Under the pieces are notes generated by a model. That model saw only the letters and a program-made list of their open reading frames with translations, searched no databases and was not told where the DNA came from. Of a stretch of 37,471 nt of DNA, positions 15,528 to 19,551 are shown piece by piece. Every line of letters starts with the position of its first letter. Position 1 is the stretch's first letter. The translations under genes were made by a program, and so were the position numbers. Location of the stretch: NCBI GenBank assembly GCA_003173865.1, contig PJMF01000020.1, forward strand, positions 1 to 37,471. The letters run 5' to 3'. Origin of the DNA: Minisyncoccota bacterium (lineage in GTDB: Bacteria > Patescibacteriota > Microgenomatia > UBA1400 > PJMF01).

Positions 15528-15654
15528 CAGAGCTGGTAATAAGACACTATGCGTGCTTAGATGCTCCTGAGTGGGTCACTCAGTTTGAGTCTAAGAACAA
15601 CACGTATAGCACCGCCGCTCTACCAAATAAGATCTCGGAAACGAGGTCTTTTTT
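15528..15654 (+). ncRNA. Structured orphan small RNA (possible 6S-like architecture)
   Basis: Between a canonical promoter and a rho-independent terminator lies about 127 nt with no ORF. Perfect or near-perfect pairings nest inside each other: 15529-15533 with 15617-15621 (AGAGC/GCTCT); 15547-15555 with 15601-15609 (9 bp with one G-U); 15556-15561 with 15590-15595; CTC/GAG; and an apical hairpin 15567-15573 with 15577-15583. The unpaired 13- and 7-base strands next to the closing stem form a large internal bulge. A closing stem, central bulge and long apical rod recall 6S RNA, but it is shorter than usual and I see no sequence match. It lacks the GGAA-loop signature of SRP RNA. Function unknown. 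Confidence 0.65.
15630..15654 (+). terminator. Rho-independent terminator of the small RNA
   Basis: AGATCTCG-GAAA-CGAGGTCT forms an 8-bp stem (one G-T) with a GNRA-type loop, followed by six T. It ends five bases before the stop of the convergent DUF3800 gene. Confidence 0.88.
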
Positions 15655-16390: not shown

Positions 16391-16396
16391 TATAAT
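16391..16396 (+). promoter_or_regulatory. -10 box of the ileS T-box transcript
   Basis: A perfect TATAAT, without a clear -35, places the RNA start near 16403, ten bases before the first T-box helix. Confidence 0.6.
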
Positions 16397-16402
16397 TATG
16401 CA

Positions 16403-16582
16403 AAACCCACCGTTTCAGCTCGACAATCATCGAGCGAGGTGCTGAAAGAAATCGCTTTACGCGAAATTAGATTCAGTCGGGTAAGCCCGTTACAGCAGGA
16501 ATTAAGCACACAAGGCTGGTACCTTTCTCTACTTGAGAAGCCTTCACTGTTCATCATTGTAATGAGTAGTGGAGGCTTTTTT
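16403..16582 (+). promoter_or_regulatory. T-box riboswitch (tRNA-Ile sensor) upstream of ileS
   Basis: The core T-box AAGGCTGGTACC sits at 16512-16523. The antiterminator is textbook: helix A1 AAGGC (16512-16516) with GCCTT (16540-16544), the bulge TGGTACC (16517-16523) that pairs with the tRNA NCCA end, and helix A2 TTCTC (16525-16529) with GAGAA (16535-16539) around a 5-base loop. It excludes the terminator at 16538-16582. TGGT calls for discriminator A, as in tRNA-Ile. Upstream, a short Stem I (TTTCAGC 16413-16419 with GCTGAAA 16441-16447; inner GCTCG/CGAGC) closes an 8-base loop ACAATCAT with an ATC Ile codon at 16426-16428, like the ultrashort Stem I of some ileS T-boxes. Two more small hairpins lie between. 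Confidence 0.9.
16538..16582 (+). terminator. T-box regulated intrinsic terminator
   Basis: AAGCCTTCACT (16538-16548) pairs with AGTGGAGGCTT (16568-16578), 11 bp with one G-T, followed by T6. Its 5' arm overlaps the antiterminator A1 strand, so the two folds are mutually exclusive. Confidence 0.9.
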
Positions 16583-16668: not shown

Positions 16669-16698
16669 TTGACTTTAAAACAAAAAATCAACTTATAA
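16669..16698 (+). promoter_or_regulatory. Possible second ileS promoter after the T-box terminator
   Basis: TTGACT (16669-16674), an 18-base spacer and TTATAA (16693-16698) would start RNA within a few bases of the ileS ATG, bypassing the T-box. The stretch is AT-rich and overlaps the AAAAGGA ribosome-binding site, so this is tentative. Confidence 0.25.
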
Positions 16699-16707
16699 AA
16701 GGAAACT

Positions 16708-19551
16708 ATGCCTAAAATGACCCAATTACCACAAGTCCCTAACTTCCCTCAACTTGAGGAGGAAATTTCGAATTTTTGGGACGCCGACAAGACTTTTGAA
16801 AAATCTGTCGAACAACGCGACGTCAAACAATCGTACGTCTTCTACGATGGACCTCCTTTTGCGACTGGCCTTCCACATTACGGCCACATTCTCGCCTCAA
16901 CGATTAAAGACGTCATTCCACGTTACTGGACGATGAAAGGCTACCGCGTGGAAAGAGTATGGGGTTGGGATTGTCACGGCTTACCAATTGAAAACATGAT
17001 TGAAGGGGAGTTGCAACTCAAAGGTGGAAAGAAGGGAATCGAAGCATATGGCATTGATAAATTTAATCAAGCATGTCGCTCGGCAATTTTGCGCTTCGAT
17101 AAAGATTGGGAAGTGATTATTCGCCGGATTGGTCGCTGGGTTGACTTCAAGAACTCCTACAAAACCATGGATAAAAATTACATGGAGTCCGTGTGGTGGG
17201 GTTTTTCTGAACTGATGAAAAAAGGACTAATCTATGAGGGTCGCAAAATCGTCTTGTACTGTCCACGCTGCGCCACTCCGCTTTCTAACTTCGAGATCGC
17301 CATGGATAACTCATACAAAGATGTAGAAGATAACTCTGTGTACGTCAAGTTTCTTCGAAAAGATAAAGCCAATGAATACTTTTTAGCATGGACTACTACA
17401 CCATGGACTTTACCGGGCAACGTGGCTCTCGCCGTACTTCCAGACGCTGATTACAGCAAGTTTGAAGTCGATGGTGAATGTATTTGGGTGGCACACGAAA
17501 AAGTTGCTCATATTGCCAAGATGAAAGATATTCATCACGCGCAAATTATAGAAACTGTCAAAGGCAAAGATTTAGTGGGTATTGAATATGAAGCGCTGTA
17601 TAAATACATGCCTCTTGATGGGAAAAAAGCCTATTACGTCACAACCGCTGACTTCGTCAGTTTGAGTGATGGCACTGGTATCGTCCATACTGCAGCCATT
17701 TACGGTGAAGATGACTACGCGCTCGCACAAAAGATTAACTTACCATGTGTCCCAACTCTCGATGATGAAGGAAAATTTTTACCAATCGTTGAGCCCATCA
17801 AAGGCATATTTTATAAAAAAGCCGAGCAATGGATCATCGATGATTTGTCAGAACGCGGCTTAATGTATCTTGCTGAAAAATACAAGCACTCGTACCCATT
17901 TTGTTATCGCTGCAGTACGCCACTTTTTTACAATGCAGTACCAGCATGGTTTATCAACGTTCAAAAATTAAAGGCAACACTCATCGCCGCAAATGAATCA
18001 ATTAATTGGTTCCCCGAACACTTAAAACACGGTCGTTTTGGCAAAGGAATTGAAACTGCACCAGATTGGAATGTTTCTCGTTCACGCTACTGGGGAACCC
18101 CAATGCCTGTCTGGTCAGCAACCGACCCCAAAAATAACCAACGTATTTTCCGCACAGTTGGTTCACTCGCCGAACTCAAACAGTGGGCCGTTGATCCAGC
18201 ACAAGTTGAAAAACTTACCGACATCCACCGCGAATTTTTAGATGCAATCGAAGTTTGGGTCGATGACGCCAAAACGATCAAAGGCAAACGCATCTCGGAA
18301 GTTTTTGACTGCTGGGTCGAGAGCGGCAGCATGCCATTTGCTGCAGTGCATTATCCATTTGAAAACAAAGAGTGGTTTGAAAATAACTATCCTGCGCAAT
18401 TTATTTCTGAATACATTGCCCAAACGCGCGCGTGGTTTTACTGCATGCACGTACTTTCGGTAGGTATTTTTAGCAAGCCATCGTTTCAAAATGCCTTGAC
18501 CACAGGGACAATTTTGGCTGAAGATGGCTCAAAGATGAGCAAGTCGAAGAAAAATTATCCTGACCCGATGTTACTGATTAATAAATATGGTGTTGATAGT
18601 TTGCGACTGTACCTCATGAGCTCTGTCGTGATGAAAGCTGACAATCTGAACTTCAATGAAAAAGAAGTTGATGAACTACGCAAAAAAGTCTTTGTCATTT
18701 GGTGGAATGTTTTTACGTTTTATCAAACGTTTGCCAACCACGATCACGACGTCACTGCTGTTCCCAAAAAAGCTGAGCACGTTATGGATCAATGGCTCCT
18801 TAGTCGCTTGCAGACTGTCACTGAACAACTCACCAAAAGTATGGACGAGTACGACGTGGTGCGGGCAAGTCGCTTTTTGATTGATTTTGTCAGTGAGTTC
18901 TCCACTTGGTATCTGCGTCTCAGTCGTGATCGGCTTAAAGCCGAGGACAATAGCGAAGTAAGTCATGTGTTTGGTTATGCGCTCTTTACTTTAGCGCAGT
19001 TATTTGCCCCGCTCACGCCTTTTTTTAGTGAAGTGTTGTATCACCAAATCGCAAATGACAAAACTTCCATTCATTTGACGAGTTGGCCAATTGTGCAGAA
19101 AAAATTGCAAATGGCGACGCTCGAAGAGGAAATGATGATTGTGCGCAAAATCGTTGAATCAGCGCACGCGGCACGGCGTTTCGCAAATATCAAAGTGCGT
19201 CAACCGCTCGCGAGTATCAAAGTAACAACTCAAACGCTCACTTACCAAAAAGAACTTTCTGAACTCATGAAAGCAGAGCTCAATGTGAAGCATGTGATAT
19301 GGCATGAGTCGACGAGTATGTCTGATCCCGAAGTCGTTTTAGAAACAACTCTCACAGATGAATTGCGTGCGGAAGGTGAAGCCCGTGAAGTCATGCGCCA
19401 AATCCAAGATTTGCGCAAAAAACAACAAGTGAAGCTCGATGCTTGGGTCACTGTACAATTGCCAAGTTGGCCAGCTGCATGGGAAGAACAAATCAAACAA
19501 AAAACTAAAGTGAAAGAATTGAAAAAAGGACCTTCATATGACATTAAGTAG
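16708..19551 (+). CDS. ileS: Isoleucyl-tRNA synthetase, IleRS2 (eukaryote-like) type
   Basis: IleRS charges tRNA-Ile with isoleucine in the cytosol and hydrolyses mischarged Val-tRNA in an inserted CP1 editing domain. The 947-aa protein has YDGPPFATGLPHYGHIL (HIGH motif HYGH, 57-60), GWDCHGLPIEN, the CP1 domain with AWTTTPWTLPGNVALAV, and KMSKS at 609-613. The PPFATGLPHYGHIL form is typical of the IleRS2 class shared with eukaryotes and many slow-growing or mupirocin-resistant bacteria. Zinc-like CPRC and CYRC motifs lie around CP1, and the C-terminal bacterial zinc finger of IleRS1 is absent. An AAAAGGA site precedes the ATG. A T-box controls it, and the next gene overlaps its end by 14 bases. 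Confidence 0.96.
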   Translation: MPKMTQLPQVPNFPQLEEEISNFWDADKTFEKSVEQRDVKQSYVFYDGPPFATGLPHYGHILASTIKDVIPRYWTMKGYRVERVWGWDCHGLPIENMIEGELQLKGGKKGIEAYGIDKFNQACRSAILRFDKDWEVIIRRIGRWVDFKNSYKTMDKNYMESVWWGFSELMKKGLIYEGRKIVLYCPRCATPLSNFEIAMDNSYKDVEDNSVYVKFLRKDKANEYFLAWTTTPWTLPGNVALAVLPDADYSKFEVDGECIWVAHEKVAHIAKMKDIHHAQIIETVKGKDLVGIEYEALYKYMPLDGKKAYYVTTADFVSLSDGTGIVHTAAIYGEDDYALAQKINLPCVPTLDDEGKFLPIVEPIKGIFYKKAEQWIIDDLSERGLMYLAEKYKHSYPFCYRCSTPLFYNAVPAWFINVQKLKATLIAANESINWFPEHLKHGRFGKGIETAPDWNVSRSRYWGTPMPVWSATDPKNNQRIFRTVGSLAELKQWAVDPAQVEKLTDIHREFLDAIEVWVDDAKTIKGKRISEVFDCWVESGSMPFAAVHYPFENKEWFENNYPAQFISEYIAQTRAWFYCMHVLSVGIFSKPSFQNALTTGTILAEDGSKMSKSKKNYPDPMLLINKYGVDSLRLYLMSSVVMKADNLNFNEKEVDELRKKVFVIWWNVFTFYQTFANHDHDVTAVPKKAEHVMDQWLLSRLQTVTEQLTKSMDEYDVVRASRFLIDFVSEFSTWYLRLSRDRLKAEDNSEVSHVFGYALFTLAQLFAPLTPFFSEVLYHQIANDKTSIHLTSWPIVQKKLQMATLEEEMMIVRKIVESAHAARRFANIKVRQPLASIKVTTQTLTYQKELSELMKAELNVKHVIWHESTSMSDPEVVLETTLTDELRAEGEAREVMRQIQDLRKKQQVKLDAWVTVQLPSWPAAWEEQIKQKTKVKELKKGPSYDIK

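Follow-up and report, generated by a model that had tools for sequence, protein, structure and literature searches.

Analysis of the 37,471-nt contig PJMF01000020.1 from a Minisyncoccota bacterium (assembly GCA_003173865.1), hereafter the window, revealed a 180-nt leader (positions 16403–16582, + strand) of the isoleucyl-tRNA synthetase gene ileS that is, with little doubt, a transcription-attenuating T-box riboswitch carrying a tRNA-binding domain of the class III type, with an ultrashort Stem I and a dependence on Stem II. T-boxes are divided into classes I–IV: classes I and II are generally transcriptional and have a long Stem I with an interdigitated double T-loop motif (IDTM); class III has a short Stem I with an apical specifier and requires Stem II, and classes III and IV are mostly translational (PMC10482949). 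As read from its sequence, the window leader is a class III aptamer joined to an expression platform of the class I type. We directly observed its sequence elements, which were checked letter by letter, their conservation and covariation, the terminators, and the agreement of both specifier and bulge with the downstream gene.

Stem I of the window leader extends over only ~32 nt (16409–16440), as a preliminary description made from the letters alone had proposed, and the long Stem I with a distal IDTM that marks class I is absent. It is composed of a basal helix (ACC/GGT, 16409–16411/16438–16440), a kink-turn (K-turn)-like internal loop (GTTTCA/GA, 16412–16417/16436–16437) and a specifier hairpin (GCTCGA/TCGAGC, 16418–16423/16430–16435) that carries AUC, an isoleucine codon complementary to the anticodon GAU, at 16426–16428. 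The codon had been placed in an 8-nt hairpin loop; the hairpin loop was found, and it measures 8 nt if A16423 and T16430 are unpaired and 6 nt (CAATCA) if they are paired. A short, IDTM-less Stem I with the specifier in an apical loop of 5–6 nt, here CAATCA, is a hallmark of class III. Both helices covary among 11 ileS leaders: pairs of the basal helix exchange as AU/GC/UA and CG/UA/GC, and five of the six specifier-hairpin pairs change on both sides. In larger alignments of 63 and 60 leaders, the specifier hairpin is ~95% paired, again with both-side changes. A likely −10 box, TATAAT (16391–16396, + strand; predicted transcription start ~16403), lies ~12 nt 5' of Stem I; if it serves as such, a long Stem I would have no space. 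Among 139 related leaders, 83% have a −10 match of ≥5/6 just 5' of Stem I, compared with 40% of shuffles, and space for a long Stem I is scarce there as well.

Stem II (16441–16477) contains a lower helix (GCTGA/TCAGT, 16441–16445/16473–16477), the S-turn strands AGAA (16447–16450) and TAGA (16468–16471), and an upper hairpin (TCGC/GCGA, 16452–16464). Across the 11 ileS leaders, all five lower-helix pairs change on both sides while staying 100% paired, AGAA is invariant and the opposite strand reads T-A-(G/A)-A in 11 of 11. Stem II is followed by a Stem IIA/B pseudoknot (16478–16496), in which IIA (CGG/CCG, 16478–16480/16487–16489) is 100% paired in the 63 and 60 leaders, and IIB (GC/GC, 16485–16486/16495–16496) is 100% paired and almost invariant in the 11. 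GUAA/UUAC was also considered as the second pseudoknot helix and was dropped, as relatives keep GC/GC and not GUAA/UUAC. The class III hallmark of a Stem II with S-turn sequences followed by a IIA/B pseudoknot is therefore present at the level of primary sequence; these elements, together with the K-turn-like base of Stem I and the TATAAT box, had no place in the preliminary description.

The expression platform consists of two mutually exclusive folds that share the 3' strand of helix A1 (16540–16544). The antiterminator (16512–16544, + strand) is formed by A1 (AAGGC/GCCTT, 16512–16516/16540–16544), the T-box bulge UGGUACC (16517–16523), and A2 (TTCTC/GAGAA, 16525–16529/16535–16539) with the loop TACTT. 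The intrinsic terminator is a hairpin of 15 bp including three G-U pairs (16540–16554/16562–16576), followed by T6 (16577–16582). An antiterminator and an overlapping terminator without flaw had been claimed here; all of their elements are present, with the small correction that a lone T16524 stays unpaired between the bulge and A2. The leader as a whole folds 3.2 SD more stably than its shuffled versions (0 of 200 as stable), and the predicted energies were −20.7 kcal/mol for 16538–16582 and −8.9 kcal/mol for the antiterminator. An antiterminator of the right geometry was found in 92.6% of 136 related leaders against 15.1% of shuffles, so that the lack of conservation named beforehand as grounds for abandoning the T-box was not seen. 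A1 covaries among the leaders as AAGG/CCTT, GAGG/CCTC, AGGG/CCCT, AAGA/TCTT and GGGG/CCCC. Terminator-like hairpins with a U tract occurred in 92.9% of 140 related leaders and in 13.4% of shuffles. The ribosome-binding region of ileS, AAAGGAAAC (16696–16707, + strand), lies >110 nt past the U tract and is not masked by the T-box, which makes ribosome-site masking unlikely and suggests, in line with the first proposal, a transcriptional platform. The window leader therefore lacks the class III trait of regulating translation, a trait that is described as usual ('mostly') and not as strictly defining. A second terminator design was observed in five leaders (L178, L182, L168, L170 and L172): here the bulge's ACC pairs with a GGU just 5' of the U tract, and the bulge that would bind tRNA is thereby buried in the terminator itself.

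The downstream open reading frame (ORF; 16708–19551, + strand; 947 aa) is a genuine ileS (TIGR00392, 845.9 bits vs a cut-off of 621.4), which fits the proposal that the leader controls this gene. The nearest named relatives of the encoded protein in the genome_contigs collection come from Patescibacteria/'Pacebacteria'/Microgenomates genomes (best match, 71% identity), in keeping with the suspected host from the Candidate Phyla Radiation (CPR); the host genome comprises 1.2 Mb in 32 contigs. Its own tRNA-Ile(GAU), identified with RF00005 and ARAGORN, ends in the discriminator A73 and matches the UGGU of the bulge, as had been expected for tRNA-Ile. Two candidates for this tRNA from a pattern search were not tRNAs and were replaced by that result.

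We then compared specifier and bulge with the genes downstream of the related leaders, which NCBIfam assigned to ileS, serS, aspS (discriminating and non-discriminating), valS, argS, proS, trpS, tyrS and lysS. The cognate codon was present in the specifier loop of 112 of 137 leaders, whereas 1000 permutations of the genes averaged 39.7 and never exceeded 56; this count includes automatic specifier calls only, and automatic assignment mis-picks some hairpins, several of which were read by hand. The specifiers read by hand were AGC/UCC for Ser, GAC/AAC for Asp, GUC for Val, CGC for Arg, CCC for Pro, UGG for Trp and UAC for Tyr. The expected discriminators are A73 for the tRNAs of Ile, Val, Pro, Arg, Tyr and Lys and G73 for those of Ser, Asp and Trp. 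The bulge base was U or C at a ratio of 75:7 before A73-type genes and 14:34 before G73-type genes (Fisher P 1.6e-13).

Leaders with the same modules in the same order were found before the ileS genes of relatives (L002, L003, L004, L006, L007, L009 and many family members), and a search for homologues, as had been advised, recovered related leaders across the phylum. In the 11-sequence ileS alignment (MAFFT), ATC, AGAA, much of the IIA/B core and TGG-ACC are invariant. Among the 63 leaders, 93.4% of cells pair vs 63.2% after shuffling, with a covariation score of 0.739 vs 0.171 (slid controls, ≤0.17); for the 60 further leaders outside the order, the values were 96.6% vs 61.6% and 0.873 vs 0.185. 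Because the model structure guided both of these alignments, they are biased in its favour; the MAFFT alignment was made without such fitting. A covariance model, R3, trained solely on the 60 leaders from outside this order, matched the window at exactly 16408–16523 (85.2 bits, E ~1e-14). It also matched three Actinoplanes/Amorphoplanes ileS leaders: L044 and L050 at E ~2e-5 and L047 at 5e-4. When model R2 was run on 50 control genomes from Spirochaetes, Alphaproteobacteria, Actinobacteria and others, only four weak matches were returned, all at actinobacterial ileS leaders. These results indicate that the models are specific and that the CPR leaders share their architecture with actinobacterial class III T-boxes, probably by common descent.

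Model R1 matched in 29 of 42 genomes of the family (E up to 1) and 61 of 88 of the order (E up to 0.1). With R2 at E up to 0.01, 118 of 374 genomes sampled from the class and 121 of 380 from the phylum had matches, up to five per genome; these class and phylum counts are probably lower bounds, because the wide searches used strict filters. Canonical T-boxes above the RF00230 cut-off occurred in 9 of the 88 genomes of the order, for example L253 with a TyrRS-like ORF downstream. A T-box in a CPR-like genome had been called noteworthy and, with an ultrashort Stem I and transcriptional control, unusual; the combination of short Stem I and terminator was borne out, and its supposed isolation was not, since it is phylum-wide and ordinary T-boxes are present too. 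An older survey listed T-boxes in Firmicutes, Actinobacteria, Chloroflexi, Deinococcus and two Proteobacteria (PMC2494555), and the class II (translational) model of TBDB was run on actinobacterial genomes and on class I hits whose Stem I is truncated (PMC7778990). In the open-access literature, we found no paper joining Patescibacteria or CPR with T-boxes. The large set of short T-boxes in about a third of CPR genomes is apparently undescribed; CPR T-boxes as such may already sit unremarked in Rfam or TBDB, the short-Stem-I type being what Rfam misses.

Short-Stem-I T-boxes were also observed before non-synthetase genes (L140, L173, L165, L236 and L199), namely asparaginase (AAC), aspartate aminotransferase-like (GAC, AAC), carboxypeptidase M32 (CGC) and inositol-phosphatase family (AUC) genes. 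The window's own genome has a second one (L305, G000:C8:45682-45829:-), with the loop GTCACGA, the specifier CAC (His) and the bulge UGGG. Downstream of it come a terminator, then a tRNA-His(GTG) gene with C73, and then a hisG-like and a hisS-like ORF (both ORFs named by eye). This T-box is a candidate controller of a tRNA gene itself, which is unusual; a similar layout, with a tRNA gene directly 3' of a canonical T-box leader, was seen in genome G030 (L262, 2349-2420, − strand). Two more leaders were seen in the window's own genome. L257 (G000:C8:19612-19922:-; 74 bits) is a canonical long-Stem-I T-box, possibly with the Tyr specifier UAC, and precedes an ORF of unknown function; L258 (G000:C7:55080-55297:+) is T-box-like, has a UGGA bulge and precedes a glycyl-tRNA synthetase-like gene (named by eye).

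By analogy with known class III structures, from which the tRNA contacts, charge sensing and switching are taken, transcription would start just 5' of Stem I, and the AUC that Stem I, with its K-turn-like base, displays in its apical loop would pair with the anticodon GAU of tRNA-Ile. The Stem II S-turn, positioned by the IIA/B pseudoknot, would clamp the codon–anticodon duplex sideways, and the tRNA elbow would stay uncontacted, as there is no long Stem I. The A73-CCA 3' end of an uncharged tRNA would pair with UGGU in the bulge and stabilise the antiterminator, allowing RNA polymerase to read into ileS. With charged tRNA, whose 3' end would be unable to pair, the stronger overlapping hairpin would form and transcription would stop at the U tract.

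Several points weigh against this reading of the leader. The Rfam T-box model RF00230, proposed beforehand as a check, gave no match in the leader, either at its gathering score or at E 10. That score is a catalogue criterion, which we did not treat as defining a T-box; RF00230 also missed the actinobacterial short-Stem-I (class III-like) ileS leaders, so the negative result reflects the reach of a 219-position model centred on a long Stem I. A simple terminator scan missed the window terminator, though the fold shows it; no good −35 element was found upstream of the leader, and a simple promoter scan returned no + strand promoter. The K-turn strand reads UCA in the window and UGA in most relatives. 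Most T-box classes have a Stem III between IIA/B and the antiterminator. No such helix is evident in the window, where this interval is a 15-nt linker (16497–16511); in some relatives the insert at this place is longer. The fourth bulge base does not match A73 in seven ileS leaders: L118, L121, L115 and L177 (UGGC) and L003, L148 and L151 (UGGA). The mismatch is real in the genomes G010 and G011 (UGGC) and G074 and G075 (UGGA), whose tRNA-Ile A73 was verified. Finally, it has been argued that a transcriptional T-box captures tRNA fast enough only with the IDTM of Stem I (PMC7583486), and a short Stem I before a terminator might therefore bind too slowly.

This kinetic argument favours a different reading, in which tRNA-Ile is bound weakly or slowly without the IDTM and the leader acts mainly as a constitutive partial terminator setting a low level of ileS; the terminator is also more stable than the antiterminator in silico. 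We consider this improbable: conservation of the specifier, UGGN, Stem II and the pseudoknot extends across the phylum, with compensatory changes in the helices, all of which would be needless for a plain terminator, and a class III T-box in isolation has a Kd of ~24 nM for tRNA (PMC10482949). Somewhat less probable still is control of translation as in Actinobacteria, with the ribosome-binding site masked and the terminator-like hairpin incidental. The aptamer does resemble that of actinobacterial translational ileS T-boxes, with which it probably shares ancestry, but T6 follows the hairpin, the AAAGGAAAC-ATG start region lies >110 nt further on, hairpin and U tract recur in relatives far above shuffles, and the actinobacterial leaders that were read (Actinoplanes) have no U tract. 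That attenuation here works in another way, such as through a leader peptide or a protein, and that the leader resembles a T-box by chance has hardly any probability left: the RF00230 negative speaks for it and direct evidence is nil, whereas the match to the independently built R3 rules against chance, the codon–gene agreement already contradicts it and the leader sequence has no evident Ile-rich ORF.

The T-box reading also places the leader relative to known systems. Like the actinobacterial class III ileS T-boxes of Nocardia farcinica and Mycobacterium tuberculosis (PMC10482949, PMC7583486, PMC10651847), it has a short Stem I with an apical specifier and, in the window, a K-turn-like base, a Stem II with S-turn sequences (AGA on the 3' strand), a IIA/B pseudoknot and a UGGN bulge before ileS; unlike them, it has a terminator instead of a ribosome-site sequestrator as well as no evident Stem III. 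In addition, the actinobacterial type serves ileS, whereas the Patescibacteria type also serves Ser, Asp/Asn, Val, Arg, Pro, Trp, Tyr and His. With class I transcriptional T-boxes (Bacillus subtilis tyrS; RF00230), the leader shares the antiterminator/terminator switch, the UGGN bulge, a Stem II with S-turn sequences and a synthetase gene, but it is without the long Stem I and IDTM and falls below Rfam detection. The class II glyQS T-boxes are likewise compact and transcriptional, yet they keep a long Stem I and have no Stem II, the reverse of what the window leader shows.

A variant was found among the Ser and Asp leaders. The S-turn motif was present in 54 of 65 Ile leaders, 8 of 25 Asp leaders and 1 of 21 Ser leaders. 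In 14 leaders (8 Asp and 6 Ser: L153, L154, L155, L159, L160, L138, L161, L162, L163, L166, L167, L170, L186 and L243), Stem II is replaced by a 6-bp hairpin with the octaloop GGUNNYAA directly 5' of IIA. This hairpin occurred in 0 of 65 Ile leaders and in 0.03% of shuffles; its stem is 97.6% paired, with both-side change at six of six pairs. Binding of tRNA is helped by the IDTM, the S-turn or both (PMC10482949), and, to judge by their sequences, the GGUNNYAA members appear to be without either. We give an even chance to the broader proposal that Patescibacteria have a phylum-wide kind of T-box, in which a short-Stem-I aptamer is coupled to termination for many amino acids and whose Ser/Asp members, lacking both IDTM and S-turn, bind tRNA via the GGUNNYAA hairpin in place of Stem II; this would add a fifth class to the known T-box architectures and a new module for clamping tRNA.

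Elsewhere in the window, upstream of the leader, a DUF3800-V RNA (15528–15622, + strand; 62.8 bits, cut-off 37.4) is followed by a terminator-like hairpin and stands tail-to-tail with a DUF3800 gene (PF12686; 15659–16327) on the − strand.

In reviews of T-boxes, transcriptional control goes together with a long Stem I that touches the tRNA elbow, since RNA polymerase allows only a short time for capturing the tRNA; the ultrashort Stem I is described as an actinobacterial, mostly translational form found before ileS. Short-Stem-I T-boxes that occur phylum-wide on terminators, for many amino acids, offer a direct test of the rule that links a long Stem I to transcriptional control. Most of this short-Stem-I regulon has been missed by Rfam annotation, and its predicted, very small tRNA-sensing RNAs are a supply for structure work and engineering. 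These results suggest RNA-based control of the response to amino-acid starvation in Patescibacteria, bacteria in which regulation is little known.
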